Shown: piece by piece, positions 658 through 6,809 of the stretch
Layout: every line of letters begins with the position of its first letter
Position numbering within the stretch: the stretch's first letter is position 1
Source: Chthonomonadaceae bacterium
GTDB taxonomy: Bacteria > Armatimonadota > Chthonomonadetes > Chthonomonadales > Chthonomonadaceae
DNA: 64,000 nucleotides
Assembly (NCBI GenBank): GCA_025352825.1
Contig: JANXSG010000218.1
Coordinates: 1 to 64,000, forward strand
Direction: 5' to 3'
The notes under the pieces: generated by a model
What the model saw: the letters and a program-made list of their open reading frames with translations, nothing else
The model's database searches: none
What the model was told of the DNA's origin: nothing
Program-made: the position numbers and the translations under genes

Positions 658-1176
658 ATGTGTGAACGATTATTTGGCAGGCTGACACTGGTGATCCCTG
701 TAATTTTTGCTGGGATGTGGATGAGTCAGGCATCACGAGCAGACCTCGTGTTGACTCCCAACATCACTTCCTCAGGTGGTGTATATACCTACGACTACAA
801 CATCATGAACGACACGAGTTCCGATCTGGCGCTTGTAAATCTGTATGTGCCAATGGGGCAAGACCAGATTTGGAACGTGATGACTCCATCGGGGTTCCAG
901 GGGGTATACGATTCTGGGCTTGGAATCGTGACGTTTCTGAGTGACAGCAGTACAATTTCCAGTGGTTTTCAGGGCGATGGATTTAGTTTCCAGTCTAACG
1001 ATGCGCCCGGAACAATCAACACCAGTGCATTGACAATCAATGGTCAATCTCTGGTGGGTAGTACGGCAGGCCCAGTACCAGAACCGGGAAGTCTGGCTGC
1101 AATGACAGCAATGAGCTCAATCTTAGGGCTTAGCTTACTCAGAACTCGACGAAAACGAATACTAGTACAGCACTAA
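658..1176 (+). CDS. PEP-CTERM sorting-domain exported protein
   Basis: The 172-residue protein has an N-terminal signal peptide (about residues 1-29) and a beta-rich, Ser/Gly/Asn-rich body. Its C-terminal tripartite tail is a PEP motif (PVPEPGS, PEP at 141-143), a hydrophobic stretch (about 146-161) and a basic end (RTRRKR). This is the PEP-CTERM signal recognised by exosortase, which removes the tail during export to the envelope. The ATG has a good GGGAGG site. The gene heads a co-directional run with the DUF4331, TPR and NicO genes; the gap to the next start is 63 bases with no terminator. The body matches no domain I recognise. Confidence 0.85.
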   Translation: MCERLFGRLTLVIPVIFAGMWMSQASRADLVLTPNITSSGGVYTYDYNIMNDTSSDLALVNLYVPMGQDQIWNVMTPSGFQGVYDSGLGIVTFLSDSSTISSGFQGDGFSFQSNDAPGTINTSALTINGQSLVGSTAGPVPEPGSLAAMTAMSSILGLSLLRTRRKRILVQH

Positions 1177-1239
1177 GTCATGGTTTCCAATTCTGGAAAT
1201 ACTCATTTCAATTCCATATTTCTGAAGGAGAAAAGTTCG

Positions 1240-2712
1240 ATGCAATTTAATAAATTTGCCGCAATGTTCGCGGCAGGCGCTGCTCTGTTCTTGCCAGGAC
1301 AGGCAGGGCGAGCATCAAGTCACAGCGATGCACCTCTTATCAAGCAGGACCCTCAAGCAAACCTTACCGATGTCTATGCATTTGTCGGAAAGAATAAAGC
1401 CGGTACAAAAGTTCTAAACGTAGTAGTTAACGTTCGCCCATTTTGCGAACCGGGAGACGGCGTAATTTATGACCGTTTTGCCGATGACGCACTCTACAGC
1501 ATTCACATTGCAAATCCGACTACCGGAGCGGCGGTTTGCGATTACAACTTCCGCTTTTCACAGGTAAATCCTCATGTACTTCCCGGACTGAAAAATCCTA
1601 ACACGATTCTATCATACGGCCTGGGATCACAAGCCGGTCCCATCCAGACTGTGGGAGATGCTCGCCAGAACTACACACAATCGTACACAATTACCAAAAC
1701 TTCTTCCAGTGGCTCATCTGCACTTGGTAATGGATCACCTCTAATTGTGGCTCCGCCGAATGTCGGCGCCAGAACAACACCGGCCTATAACGATGCGGAC
1801 GGCATCGCTAAATCTGGTGCGACAACTTACGATGCGCTGGATGCTTATACAAAACAGACGACATTTGCTCTAAATTCCGGTGAAACAGTTTTCTGTGGTC
1901 CTCGTGATGATAGTTTCTTTTCAGATATTCCTGGAATATTCGATCTGTTAAACCCCCGAATTCTGGGATCTACTTTGGGCCAGTCCGGCACTGGTGTAGA
2001 TGGTTTTAAGGGTTTCAATGTTCTCACCTATGCCATTCAAATTCCTATAAGCCAGTTGAATAGCGTACCCGGATTCCCGAATGTGGGAGTCTATGCCTCT
2101 GTCGCCCGACAGCGTGTAACCTTGAGACTTACAGATGCGGATAACGTATCTTCAGGGCCATGGATTCAAGTGAACAGACTTGGAAATCCGCTGTTCAATG
2201 AAGCGCTGGTTGCATTGAAGGATAAAGATCGTTTCAATCGCATGTCTCCTACATCGGATGTGAGTCAGTTTTCCAAATATGCGCTCACTCCCGAACTTCC
2301 TTTCCTGATCAACTTCGTCGTATTTGGCGATCCCACCGGTCAGTCTCCGCTAGCAACACATAATCGAACAGACTTGGTTGCTATATTCATGCCAGATGTA
2401 CTTCGCGTGAATACCTCAACAGATCCGGTACCGTTGGCCGGACAGCCTGGCTTTAGCCGCCTCAGCTTTATTGGTGGAGATACCACTAACGGAGTATCCA
2501 GCGGATGGCCAAATGGCCGCCGACTTGGTGATGATGTCATCGACATCGCTCTGACTGCTATAGCTAGCGGCCCCAGTTACAGCACTATCCTCGTCGTTGG
2601 CGACAACGTCGATCACAACGATGCAGTATACAACAACGTGTTCCCATATGCGGCCACCCCGCACTCTGGAACACGCAACAGCAAAGATTCCGGCGAGAAC
2701 GTCGGGCTTTAG
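1240..2712 (+). CDS. DUF4331 domain-containing exported protein
   Basis: The 490-residue product starts at the ATG preceded by GAAGGAG; an upstream in-frame ATG lacks a ribosome site. A signal peptide (about 1-25, ending QAGRAS) is followed by the family hallmark SSHSDAPLIKQDPQANLTDVYAF, of which SSHSDAP and LTDVYAF are the most conserved parts (about 26-48). Late in the protein, GRRLGDDVIDIAL is also typical. DUF4331 proteins are secreted and of unknown function. In my knowledge of the family they often sit beside TPR and metal-transporter genes, as here. The last 21 bases, including the stop, are nearly repeated 145 bases downstream, around an intergenic repeat. Confidence 0.9.
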   Translation: MQFNKFAAMFAAGAALFLPGQAGRASSHSDAPLIKQDPQANLTDVYAFVGKNKAGTKVLNVVVNVRPFCEPGDGVIYDRFADDALYSIHIANPTTGAAVCDYNFRFSQVNPHVLPGLKNPNTILSYGLGSQAGPIQTVGDARQNYTQSYTITKTSSSGSSALGNGSPLIVAPPNVGARTTPAYNDADGIAKSGATTYDALDAYTKQTTFALNSGETVFCGPRDDSFFSDIPGIFDLLNPRILGSTLGQSGTGVDGFKGFNVLTYAIQIPISQLNSVPGFPNVGVYASVARQRVTLRLTDADNVSSGPWIQVNRLGNPLFNEALVALKDKDRFNRMSPTSDVSQFSKYALTPELPFLINFVVFGDPTGQSPLATHNRTDLVAIFMPDVLRVNTSTDPVPLAGQPGFSRLSFIGGDTTNGVSSGWPNGRRLGDDVIDIALTAIASGPSYSTILVVGDNVDHNDAVYNNVFPYAATPHSGTRNSKDSGENVGL

Positions 2713-2877
2713 GGATGTGAAAGTAATCAGATATTCGACTATTTCCGGGAGTTGAAAACTCCCGGCATCAAAAAACAGTCGTCTTTCAGACGAAATCCCG
2801 CCCACAGGGCGGCTGGCCGAAGGCCTTCCAGACGGGTACTTTAGTGCCCGGCTCAAGGCGAGAACATCGGGCTTTAA
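2692..2877 (+). repeat. stem-loop repeat family A, copy 1, with flanking direct repeats
   Basis: The core (about 2742-2853) is a chain of hairpins: CCGGGAGTT/AACTCCCGG, CGTCT/AGACG, GCCC/GGGC, GGCC/GGCC and CGGGTAC/GTGCCCG. Its flanks are a 21-base direct repeat with 19 identities: 2692-2712 (the end of the DUF4331 gene, GGCGAGAACGTCGGGCTTTAG) and 2857-2877. A diverged copy lies at 26790-26902. The perfect first hairpin could terminate or process the operon mRNA between the DUF4331 and TPR genes. Confidence 0.75.
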
Positions 2878-2976
2878 TTTGGGACTGGGATCACACACAA
2901 ACTTCCGCTCCGCCTTTCGCAGTCTATTGAAAAAGGCGGAGAAGGAAGTAATCAAATCTGGCAGGAGAGGGTGAGA

Positions 2977-4356
2977 ATGAAACAGCAGACTATGGGTGGT
3001 GCTGCCATAACGGTAGCAATTGTAGCAGGAATTGCAAGTGTAGCTGCAATGAGTATCAGAGGGGCGCACTCCAGAAATGCACAAAGCAAGGCACAAAAGT
3101 TTAGTCTGATGTCCGCTATCGACAACCCGCAGAAGAAGACTGCTTCTGATGCCGAGATTGCAAAGTGGGAATCAAAAGTCAAAGCGAAGGATACAGATGA
3201 TACCTCCTGGGTCAATTTGGGGGATGCATTGATGCAGAAGACTCGTGAGACAGCTGATGCAGGATACTATACTTTAGCAGAAGAGGCTTACAATAATGCT
3301 CTTAAGATTAAACCACAGTCCGATACAGCTATGACAGGGCTGGCGTGGGTGAACGGTGGGCGCCATGAATTTGAGAAAAGTATCGACTGGGCGCGAAAAG
3401 CGCTGGCAATCGATCCAAAAAATAATCTTGCTTACGGTCTGATCGGTGATGCACAGGTAGAGATGGGCAGCTATGATGACGCATTTACAAGCTATCAAAA
3501 AATGCTCGATCTGAAGCCAGATATCTCCTCCTACAGCCGAGGCGCACATCTATTATGTATTACAGGAAATACCCTGAAAGCCAACTGGCTGATGGCAAAA
3601 GCAATTCAAATGGGCGGGCCATATGCTGAAAACACATCCTGGTGCCGTGTACAGCTGGCTCTGATCCTATTCAACGAAGGCGCGCTGATGCCGGCCGAAA
3701 AGCTGCTGGACGAAGCCATGAAGAGTTCCCCCAACAACTACCAGGTGCTGGCAGCGATGGGCAAAGTGAAAGCGGCTAAGAAGGACTATGCCAGTGCAAT
3801 CGAATGCTACCAGAAATCTGCTGCAATTGCTCCGCAGCACGATACCATTGCTTCGCTTGGCGACCTTTATCAACTTACCGGTAAATCAGATGAGGCCAAC
3901 AAACAGTACGCGCTGCTGGAGACGATCCACACACTGAATAAGTCGAAAGGCGTTCGTGGAGATGTGCAGATGGCTCAGTTCTATGCCGACCATGATCGAA
4001 ACTTAGATGTCGCCCTTCATGAGGCTCAGGATGAGTACACAACCCGTAAAAACGTGTTCGCTCAGGACACTCTGGCCTGGTGCCTCTACAAAAATGGTAT
4101 GTTCGAAGATGCGAAAGAGATGATAAAAAAGGCGCTTAGCCACCATACTCCTGATGCTCGCATTACATTTCATGCTGGGATGATCTACGAGAAGCTGGGT
4201 AAACGCGTAGAAGCACAGCAGTTTCTATACAAAGCGCTAAGCCTGAATCCGAATTTCAGTCCAGTATATGCGTCCGTTGCCGAATCTGAATACCAGAGAC
4301 TGGGTTCTGAAAAGACTGCAACTACGACGACAGCTGGTCTGACGACAGGCAAATAA
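2977..4356 (+). CDS. TPR-repeat protein, exported or membrane-anchored
   Basis: The 459-residue protein has an N-terminal hydrophobic segment (about 8-25) that could be an uncleaved anchor or signal. The rest consists of degenerate tetratricopeptide repeats, seen as recurring A-x-x-x-Y-x-x-A-L-x-I-x-P patterns (for example AEEAYNNALKIKP, ARKALAIDPKNN and QFLYKALSLNPN). The ATG has an AGGAGAGG site at good spacing; a GTG six bases upstream would be too close to it. TPR proteins are protein-protein scaffolds. Its place between the DUF4331 and NicO genes suggests it bridges these envelope proteins; that role is inferred. Confidence 0.85.
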   Translation: MKQQTMGGAAITVAIVAGIASVAAMSIRGAHSRNAQSKAQKFSLMSAIDNPQKKTASDAEIAKWESKVKAKDTDDTSWVNLGDALMQKTRETADAGYYTLAEEAYNNALKIKPQSDTAMTGLAWVNGGRHEFEKSIDWARKALAIDPKNNLAYGLIGDAQVEMGSYDDAFTSYQKMLDLKPDISSYSRGAHLLCITGNTLKANWLMAKAIQMGGPYAENTSWCRVQLALILFNEGALMPAEKLLDEAMKSSPNNYQVLAAMGKVKAAKKDYASAIECYQKSAAIAPQHDTIASLGDLYQLTGKSDEANKQYALLETIHTLNKSKGVRGDVQMAQFYADHDRNLDVALHEAQDEYTTRKNVFAQDTLAWCLYKNGMFEDAKEMIKKALSHHTPDARITFHAGMIYEKLGKRVEAQQFLYKALSLNPNFSPVYASVAESEYQRLGSEKTATTTTAGLTTGK

Positions 4357-4393
4357 CAGTGAGATTACATTTCAAGGGAAAGCGAATCGATCG

Positions 4394-6034
4394 ATGATAA
4401 TGAAGAGAGTACTCTTAAATTGTATATTGGGGTTAACAAGTGGGCTGATGGCGTTTTCTCAACAGCCGGCTTCCGCACATCCGATGGGAAACTTTTCCAT
4501 CAGCCACTATGCAAAAATAGCTGCCGCAAATGGCGATATAAAACTCCATTACATGCTCGACTTTGCTGAGATCCCCACCGTCTCAGAAATGGACAGCAAT
4601 GGTGATGGCAGAGTGACTTCAATCGAGCGTGAGAACTACCTTCACATTCACATGGATTCTCTTCGTAAGGGTTTGGTTCTAAGCATGAATGGCGAGCTGC
4701 TTCCGCTTGAGATGGAGAATGCTCATATTTCGGCCAGACCAGGCGCAGGAGGTCTGGACACAGTGTTAATCATAATTGATTTTCATGCCTCGACTGGTTA
4801 TAAATTACTTAATGTGGGCACTAAGCTGGAGTATCGAGATAACAACTTCGCTGATCGAACCGGCTGGAAAGAGATTGTGATGGCGGGGTCGGCTGGTGGT
4901 TCGTGGTCGAGCACACAGGCTTCCGCACAGGACAGGAGCCATGGACTAAGCAGATATCCGGCCAAAGCTGCATCAGCTCCTCCCCAGGAGTTGTCGGCAG
5001 AGCTTGAATTCCATCCTGGTGTATTTGAAGTGAACAACGGAGAATCAGTTCAAGCACAGCAGGTGAGACCGAACTCGCCTAGAACTCCACAAGATGCTTT
5101 CACACGGTCTATTGCGACTAAGAAGCTTACTCCTGGCATTATACTAATATCTCTGCTATTTGCTGCCCTTTTTGGCGCGATGCATGCACTATCTCCCGGA
5201 CATGGAAAAGCGATGGTCGCCGCTTACCTTGTGGGGGCTCGGGGCACTGGCAAGCACGCCATATTTCTAGGTGGAGTGATTACTATTACGCATACAATAG
5301 GCGTATTTGCTCTCGGTTTGATCACTCTCGCTCTCTCAAGATACATTGTTCCTGAACATCTGTATCCATATCTCAGTGCCTTCTCAGGAATGTCGATCGT
5401 GATAATCGGCGCGACTCTATTTCGCCAGCGGTTGAAGCACATGCTCAGCCTTAGCAGTTCATCGGCGGGGCATGATTACCACCATCATCACGAGATGGAT
5501 CATCACCACTCAGATCACGATCAAAGTCATCTTAATGTTCATGAGCATGGCCACAGCAACGATCATGTTCATTCCTCAGATCACCATCATGATCATAGTC
5601 ATGTGCACGAACATCATTACGAAAATACTCATGAGCACGATCACACTCAACTTGAAATGGAAGGCTATCATCATCACGGGGATGGAATTTACCATAGCCA
5701 TACTTTACCGGAAGATACATCAATCAGCCTGAAGTCGCTTTTGGTACTTGGGATAACTGGGGGCGTGGTTCCGTGCCCGTCCGCTCTGGTTGTGATGTTG
5801 AGCGCAATTGCCCTGCACAGAACGATACTCGGTTTAGCTCTTATCACAGCGTTTAGTTTGGGGCTTGCAGTAGTGCTGAGTGGTATTGGAATTTTGGTAG
5901 TTTATGCTCGCGGATTTATGCAGAAGCTTCCGAGCAGCCTTCGGCTAACTACACGACTGCCGGTATTTAGCGCCGCTGTTGTGACAATAATCGGACTGGT
6001 GCTTGTTATAAATTCAATACGTGGAGTGAGTTGA
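4394..6034 (+). CDS. NicO-family nickel/cobalt transporter with His-rich loop
   Basis: The 546-residue protein has a signal peptide (about 1-28) and an extracytoplasmic domain with a complete EF-hand-like loop, DSNGDGRVTSIE (67-78). About six membrane segments follow. Family motifs are HALSPGHGKAMVAAYLVG in the first membrane block and GGVVPCPSALVVMLSAIALH in the second. Between them (about 358-437) is a hydrophilic loop with dozens of His and acidic residues, typical of RcnA-type Ni/Co exporters. It ends the DUF4331/TPR operon, so that operon probably handles nickel or cobalt. Whether it exports or imports is not decidable from sequence; the His loop favours efflux or buffering. Confidence 0.88.
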   Translation: MIMKRVLLNCILGLTSGLMAFSQQPASAHPMGNFSISHYAKIAAANGDIKLHYMLDFAEIPTVSEMDSNGDGRVTSIERENYLHIHMDSLRKGLVLSMNGELLPLEMENAHISARPGAGGLDTVLIIIDFHASTGYKLLNVGTKLEYRDNNFADRTGWKEIVMAGSAGGSWSSTQASAQDRSHGLSRYPAKAASAPPQELSAELEFHPGVFEVNNGESVQAQQVRPNSPRTPQDAFTRSIATKKLTPGIILISLLFAALFGAMHALSPGHGKAMVAAYLVGARGTGKHAIFLGGVITITHTIGVFALGLITLALSRYIVPEHLYPYLSAFSGMSIVIIGATLFRQRLKHMLSLSSSSAGHDYHHHHEMDHHHSDHDQSHLNVHEHGHSNDHVHSSDHHHDHSHVHEHHYENTHEHDHTQLEMEGYHHHGDGIYHSHTLPEDTSISLKSLLVLGITGGVVPCPSALVVMLSAIALHRTILGLALITAFSLGLAVVLSGIGILVVYARGFMQKLPSSLRLTTRLPVFSAAVVTIIGLVLVINSIRGVS

Positions 6035-6044
6035 GGTCAGGAAA

Positions 6045-6809
6045 CTATTCGTGAGCTGGCCGGTCTGTTTCGCCGTTCGCTCGGCCGCCGTTCCAGTTAT
6101 AAATTCCGTTTCCAATATTGCCCAGCATAATATCGTGTCTTCCGTCTTGAGCAGAGTAGTAAAACACTTTAGTTAGTGCAACATGGCCATCTGCCGCGGC
6201 GATAGCCATTTTTCCTGCATGGGTGGAGGGGTAGGGGTAGAGCAAGTTAATCATGTCGGTGGTATCGCCATAATCTAAAAGCGCGTATGGCTGATCTCGA
6301 TTATCACTAGCCTCCGGGCGGCGAGGATTAAGTTTCATCGGGCCAGCTTCGACAAACAGCACTGTTTGACCGCTGATTTCCAGGTTCTCCAGAGGAAAAG
6401 GGCCTGGACTGAACGTATCCCAAAATCTACGGTTCATCGCGTAGGATGTATGAACAGCGTATAGAAGTGTTGGATGCTTGAATGGACGCCCACTGCCTCC
6501 CACAGGATTAGCAGGGTTTTCATAAGTCGATGAGTCTGAGATATATGCTTTAAGGACTTCCGGCCATGTCTCCCATGTTGCGTTGGGTAGTTTTCTTGCG
6601 GGAGCCATTATCCGACCGTCCCAATCCTGCGCGTAGAGTAGCGCACAGTAAGCCAGTCGATGAAGACGTGCGAGACTCTCCGCTCTTTTCTGCCCCATTT
6701 GCTGCCAGGAAAAAATAGGAATTGCCGCCACAAGCATAACTATACCTGCACCAATTCCGAATATTATCTTTTGTCGACTAAGCGCCCACCCTGTTTTTTT
6801 CAACATCAC
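6045..6809 (-). CDS. pilin/pseudopilin-like membrane protein lacking the prepilin signature
   Basis: The 254-residue protein has a basic N-terminus, one hydrophobic helix (about 15-32) and an amphipathic continuation, RAESLARLHRLAYCALLYAQDWDGR. This resembles the DUF1559/pseudopilin proteins of the window (compare [10 protein letters not shown] in the prepilin at 30919). Near the end, HAGKMAIAAADGHV matches the H-x(n)-DGH signature of those proteins. The canonical GFTLIE cleavage site is absent, so it may be a fixed membrane protein. It is convergent with the NicO gene, 10 bases apart, so it is a separate unit. Function is not known. Confidence 0.65.
   Translation of the reverse strand: MMLKKTGWALSRQKIIFGIGAGIVMLVAAIPIFSWQQMGQKRAESLARLHRLAYCALLYAQDWDGRIMAPARKLPNATWETWPEVLKAYISDSSTYENPANPVGGSGRPFKHPTLLYAVHTSYAMNRRFWDTFSPGPFPLENLEISGQTVLFVEAGPMKLNPRRPEASDNRDQPYALLDYGDTTDMINLLYPYPSTHAGKMAIAAADGHVALTKVFYYSAQDGRHDIMLGNIGNGIYNWNGGRANGETDRPAHE

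Follow-up and report, generated by a model that had tools for sequence, protein, structure and literature searches.

The window analysed here is a stretch of 64,000 nucleotides that begins at base 1 of an 83.8-kb contig (JANXSG010000218.1) from an Armatimonadota genome. Near its start lies a group of four genes encoding, in this order, a small protein with a PEP-CTERM-type tag, a secreted DUF4331 protein, a tetratricopeptide repeat (TPR) protein and a NicO-type transporter, so that DUF4331 stands two genes from NicO (Table 1). An earlier note on this DNA had described four co-directional genes of these families, and all four open reading frames (ORFs) are in place on the plus strand in the ORF list of the window (658–1176, 1180–2712, 2971/2977–4356 and 4394–6034), with the DUF4331, TPR and NicO assignments confirmed by Pfam. 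The genome, which is 95 percent complete, has DUF4331 and NicO each in single copy and lacks HupE/UreJ-2. The position of DUF4331 beside Ni/Co-type transporters, together with its predicted X-X-His end, suggests a widespread and undescribed metal-capture system.

Table 1. Features of the DUF4331 locus (window coordinates).
Feature	Position	Strand	Basis
Small secreted protein with C-terminal PEP-CTERM-type sorting tag	658..1176	+	TIGR02595, homologues in other loci, exosortase
DUF4331 protein, secreted	1240..2712 (ORF opens at 1180)	+	PF14224
Ser-Ser-His codons, directly after signal peptide; predicted mature N-terminus NH2-Ser-Ser-His (ATCUN-type)	1315..1323	+	Homologue column pattern
Intergenic gap with hairpin-forming sequence	2713..2976	+	264 bases between DUF4331 and TPR; sequence
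TPR-repeat protein with N-terminal membrane anchor	2977..4356	+	Many Pfam TPR models
NicO-type Ni/Co transporter with N-terminal periplasmic domain	4394..6034	+	PF03824; only NicO in genome
Anglerase-like periplasmic domain, predicted His1 first after signal peptide	4478..5119	+	Profile comparison and fold match
Canonical 12-residue EF-hand-type loop DSNGDGRVTSIE (D-S-N-G-D-G-R-V-T-S-I-E), within anglerase-like domain	4592..4627	+	Sequence
His-rich loop between transmembrane segments	~5471..5703	+	Sequence translation

The N-terminus of DUF4331 and the outer domain of NicO

The DUF4331 protein matches PF14224 over its full length (profile positions 1–421) with 302 bits against a gathering cut-off of 27. 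Judged from the sequence, translation more likely starts at 1240, where an ATG has GGAG upstream, than at 1180. In an alignment of 98 secreted homologues the His of the Ser-Ser-His motif is invariant, the residue three before it (−1) is A, G or S in 96 and the residue five before it (−3) is mostly A, V or T, which is the textbook signal peptidase pattern. With a cleavage-score matrix trained on 62 proteins from the same loci that carry His as the first residue (His1), the X-X-His site of the 98 homologues has a mean score of 4.6 bits, as against −2.2 bits for the His1 site. A His1 end for DUF4331 was rejected on these cleavage columns in favour of X-X-His. The same end is kept in split Armatimonadota forms (G/SDHADTP, the slash marking the predicted cleavage), in Nostoc (A/SDHQDT) and in one plasmid form (A/SHHFEVA). 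Cytosolic relatives that lack a signal peptide start M-S-N-H or M-S-H-H (M-S-[NH]-H), from which removal of Met would also leave X-X-His. Both predicted routes, signal peptidase and Met removal, put His at position 3, which argues for selection on the free end.

NH2-X-X-His is the amino-terminal Cu(II)- and Ni(II)-binding (ATCUN) motif, made up of a free amine at the N-terminus, a second residue other than Pro and His as the third. This sequence pattern, on the predicted N-termini, is present in the 98 secreted homologues and in the cytosolic ones, and we infer that the X-X-His end of DUF4331 would bind metal. Beyond the N-terminus DUF4331 has very many invariant residues (~90 invariant columns), with only one fully invariant His in A1. 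No real match to DUF4331 was found in the PDB by sequence, with either a single query or a 43-sequence profile, and a Foldseek search of its model against the PDB and viral models gave no credible match. In several Armatimonadota (loci L032, L033, L034, L035, L036 and L037) two neighbouring genes encode DUF4331 in split form; the first retains the X-X-His end (SDH), and the second is lipoprotein-like.

The NicO protein passes the gathering cut-off of PF03824 (47.7 bits against 27.7). After the A-x-A end of its signal peptide it begins HPMGNFSI, and this His1, given the predicted cleavage, is invariant in 15 homologous NicO outer domains. The outer domains of HupE proteins from the same operons likewise start with an invariant His. 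Alignment of the NicO and HupE outer domains with hhalign gives a probability of 91 percent and an E value of 1e-6, part of the score coming from a shared EF-hand-type loop. The AlphaFold2 (AF2) model of the NicO outer domain (pLDDT, the model confidence score, of 80) places helices between strands 2 and 3, and its best Foldseek match in the PDB is 9GCE (probability 1.00, E 1.2e-5, TM scores 0.44/0.54), followed by the zinc-binding ZrgA. 9GCE shows an Ang-1 domain from a HupE/UreJ-2 protein with Cu bound, and on the evidence of the model the NicO protein carries an anglerase-like His1 domain as its periplasmic part. An outer domain of this NicO type is also found on a HupE/UreJ-2 permease in one locus (L047, 7616–8977) and without a permease in two others (L034, 4378–5376; L040, 4578–5369); it is a putative mobile metal-capture module.

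The earlier note had also seen an EF-hand-like loop and a His-rich loop in the transporter, and both were located. The former is canonical, gives matches in the PDB search and has an equivalent in the HupE outer domains; the latter is common to the NicO proteins of Streptomyces and Nostoc operons.

Gene neighbourhoods and accessory features

Relatives of DUF4331 were gathered in four ways: from Armatimonadota genomes, from 47 GTDB contigs by peptide patterns, from plasmid records by tblastn and from even genome samples (299 Pseudomonadota and 149 Acidobacteriota genomes). All ORFs were scanned with profiles made from the operon proteins. NicO, HupE/UreJ and DUF4198 were counted as Ni-linked genes, and a gene was taken as near DUF4331 when it lay within 6 kb on the same strand. 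Eighty-nine loci, from Armatimonadota, Verrucomicrobiota, Planctomycetota, Acidobacteriota, Pseudomonadota, Actinomycetota and others, have enough downstream sequence. A TPR or Ni-linked gene lies near DUF4331 in 77 of the 89, a Ni-linked gene in 58 and both in 41. Ni-linked genes number 67 in 871 kb near DUF4331 and 0 in 272 kb beyond 6 kb, a count that is biased because the profiles were trained on nearby members, although PF13795 itself occurs only ~1–2 times per genome.

The gene order is conserved across phyla. In the even sample of Pseudomonadota the order DUF4331, (small lipoprotein), TPR, HupE is present in 10 of 12 full-length cases, and the same operon occurs in Streptomyces, Marinobacter, Comamonadaceae, Lichenicola, Pseudoalteromonas and Nostoc plasmids. 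The TPR gene is the most constant partner, with an adjacent homologue in most loci. Variations on this arrangement include DUF4198 in place of TPR downstream of DUF4331 (Phycisphaerae), a class F sortase between DUF4331 and TPR, followed by a ‘nickel transporter’ (Streptomyces), cytosolic DUF4331 copies that adjoin HoxN/NixA-type or HupE/UreJ carriers (Rhizobium), and DUF4331, cytochrome c, DUF4198 and HupE/UreJ in succession on one plasmid. The earlier note had proposed that DUF4331 takes part in handling nickel or cobalt in the envelope, and this is supported by NicO, HupE/UreJ-2, HupE/UreJ, DUF4198 and HoxN/NixA-type neighbours, each of which could separately have failed to appear. Transporter or TPR neighbours, whose absence elsewhere would have spoken against the proposal, were found when ~108 loci were examined.

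The first gene of the window is less constant. Its PEP-CTERM tag lies above the NCBIfam cut-off (TIGR02595, 17.8 bits against 16) and below that of Pfam (PF07589, 13.9 against 20.7), so that the sorted protein of the earlier note stands by one model and not by the other. Two findings back the weak tag: ~11 other loci have a homologous PEP-CTERM gene immediately upstream of DUF4331, and the host genome has an exosortase gene. The PEP-CTERM protein is an accessory, found upstream of DUF4331 in a minority of loci only.

Co-transcription of the four genes is putative. The 264-base gap between DUF4331 and TPR may, from its sequence, weaken the coupling between the two halves of the operon; scans of the region for terminator-like and promoter sites were at chance level. 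The last bases of DUF4331 (GGCGAGAACRTCGGGCTTTA, window 2691–2711) recur at 2856–2876, ~165 bases downstream within the gap and beside the hairpins, a repeat that is possibly an old duplication or a repeat element.

In many loci, though not in the window, an ECF (extracytoplasmic function) sigma factor with a ChrR-cupin or RskA-type anti-sigma gene adjoins DUF4331 (L045, L052, L053, L057, L059, L094, L156–L167 and L172), suggesting that DUF4331 expression there may be under stress control. Rhodobacterales plasmid copies of DUF4331 (L093, L097, L098 and L099) come with a short lipoprotein of ~70 amino acids and lie next to a cluster of type II secretion genes and the gene for an A24 prepilin peptidase. 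The gene next after NicO in the window (6045–6809, minus strand) resembles a prepilin-like H-X9-DG protein, and in L036, L038 and L080, too, prepilin-like genes are found downstream of the operon.

Proposed metal capture and the alternatives

From the computed gene content, the conserved neighbourhood, the invariant His at X-X-H and the anglerase-like NicO domain, we infer the metal, the docking, the hand-over and the direction of transport. On the outer side of the cytoplasmic membrane, the ATCUN-type end of mature DUF4331 (NH2-Ser-Ser-His) would chelate a late transition metal, either Ni2+ or Cu2+ and perhaps Co2+. The TPR protein, held by its membrane anchor, probably serves to dock DUF4331 to the permease, which is NicO here and HupE/UreJ in most other phyla. 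At the pore mouth the permease's own His1 ‘anglerase’ domain would accept the metal or hand it over, and the PEP-CTERM protein would be a lineage-specific surface accessory. We assign a probability of about 0.6 to the reading of the locus as an envelope system for metal capture and transfer that serves a permease for Ni, Co or Cu. More tentatively, and at somewhat less than even odds, DUF4331 may represent a large and undescribed class of metal carriers across many phyla, defined by an ATCUN N-terminus that is generated by signal peptidase in the envelope forms and by Met removal in the cytosolic ones, and exchanging Ni, Co or Cu with His1-domain permeases via a TPR adaptor.

Several points weigh against metal capture. 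The X-X-His site is the top-scoring cleavage site in 67 of the 98 secreted homologues, not in all, and in the window protein (PGQAGRA/SSH) the matrix favours a site three residues earlier; since its own −3 residue is Gly and another site scores higher, the SSH end of this protein rests on the family pattern. Residues 1–12 of the AF2 model of DUF4331 have pLDDT <50, which leaves the motif without structural placement. No transporter accompanies DUF4331 in four Rhodobacterales loci, where it adjoins type II secretion genes, and several cytosolic copies from Actinomycetota lack a transporter neighbour too. Among 61 Armatimonadota genomes NicO is present in 5 of 13 with DUF4331 and in 7 of 48 without it, a weak association on which we place no reliance (Fisher P = 0.11). 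Urease and NiFe hydrogenase were searched for in the host genome and are absent; both were rejected as clients, which leaves Ni import without an obvious client in this host and speaks against import for those enzymes in this organism. Finally, the metal may be copper, as ATCUN sites usually favour Cu(II) over Ni(II). Ang-1 also binds Cu more tightly than Ni (PMC12537917).

The last two points lead to a copper system, in which Cu(II) would be bound outside the membrane by both DUF4331 and the anglerase-like domain, with the NicO/HupE-type permease transporting copper or taking part in copper protection. It would fit the tightest binding of ATCUN motifs, which is that of Cu(II), and the Cu-bound state of the best fold match, 9GCE. 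The dissociation constants of RbAng-1a (74 nM for Cu2+, 220 nM for Ni2+) and Cu2+ binding by MmAng-2a are also in keeping with it, but DUF4198 is stabilized most by Ni and not by Cu (PMC12537917). The neighbours beyond the anglerases (DUF4198, NicO/HoxN-type carriers, HupE/UreJ) are Ni-linked, and no copper oxidase, CopA or CusF genes were seen beside DUF4331 in the annotated loci. We regard a copper system as the less likely reading, but as a serious alternative. Of the metals in the earlier note, nickel and cobalt agree with the neighbours; for calcium the one point in favour is the single EF-hand-like loop in the transporter's outer domain.

The ~90 invariant columns exceed the needs of a simple chelator, and could instead belong to a secreted or cytosolic metalloenzyme that receives its metal from the neighbouring transporter, with the X-X-His end and conserved Asp/Arg residues forming the active site. 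Cytosolic forms next to Ni carriers and the cytochrome c gene in one operon would be consistent with an enzyme. The single fully invariant His and a fold unlike that of any known enzyme in the fold search point away from it, though neither is decisive, and we regard it, like copper, as a less likely but serious alternative. Far less probable is a role in surface structure or adhesion, in which DUF4331 and the PEP-CTERM protein would be material of the cell surface, calcium would be bound by the EF-hand-type loop and the transporter would be there incidentally. The PEP-CTERM partner in ~11 loci, the class F sortase of Streptomyces, the type II secretion genes of Rhodobacterales and the EF-hand-like loop could be read in this way, but no sorting gene comes near the constancy of the Ni-linked gene, and Ni carriers adjoin cytosolic DUF4331 genes even where sorting genes are missing. 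Chance adjacency or an annotation artefact of unrelated genes, to which the weak tie between NicO and DUF4331 in Armatimonadota might be credited, is already contradicted by the 67 near and 0 far Ni-linked genes, by a gene order shared by many phyla and by an adjacency expected by chance in under ~1 percent of loci, because there are only ~1–2 HupE genes per genome.

Relation to known systems

Envelope metal capture has its closest parallel in the anglerase-HupE/UreJ-2 permeases (Ang-1 and Ang-2; PDB 9GCE), whose outer domains use His1 to bind Cu and Ni (PMC12537917). The NicO protein of the window shares with these His1 straight after the signal peptide, an outer domain built as a beta-sandwich whose strands 2 and 3 are separated by helices, and fusion to a Ni-type permease. 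Measured against Ang-1, it has His1, on predicted cleavage, and the Ig-like beta-sandwich of 9GCE type (by Foldseek and hhalign), but its domain sits on NicO rather than on HupE/UreJ-2, and in an operon with DUF4331 and TPR. The anglerase-like domain is so far described on HupE/UreJ-2 permeases only and is extended here to NicO; neither NicO nor DUF4331 is mentioned in the text of PMC12537917. DUF4331 (PF14224) is likewise not mentioned, and nothing was found on a combination of sortase, nickel transporter and TPR, in the open-access literature searched, outside which lie most subscription journals, preprints and supplements. Proteins with an X-X-His end escape searches for His1 proteins, which would explain why DUF4331 was missed.

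The membrane part of the NicO protein belongs to the NicO superfamily and, with its His-rich loop, resembles the efflux protein RcnA, although its match to the RcnA-type model (NF007454) is 145.7 bits, under the curated cut-off of 195. RcnA is not known to have an exported His1 domain. The secreted nickel-binding DUF4198 (PF10670; Ni Kd, or dissociation constant, 18 nM; PMC12537917) is likewise an exported metal-binding partner in DUF4331 neighbourhoods, but it is a His1 protein of another fold and family and is absent from the window. ATCUN proteins such as albumin and the histatins share with DUF4331 a free N-terminus with His at position 3, which in DUF4331 is a predicted product of signal peptidase or Met removal and a candidate metal site. 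We know of no ATCUN protein that partners a Ni permease. For DUF4331, a widespread family without an assigned role, the evidence offers a specific one. The permease classes and the anglerase idea are already known; two constant partners, DUF4331 and TPR, are added to the anglerase-permease idea, and DUF4331 is possibly a new class of carrier at its centre.

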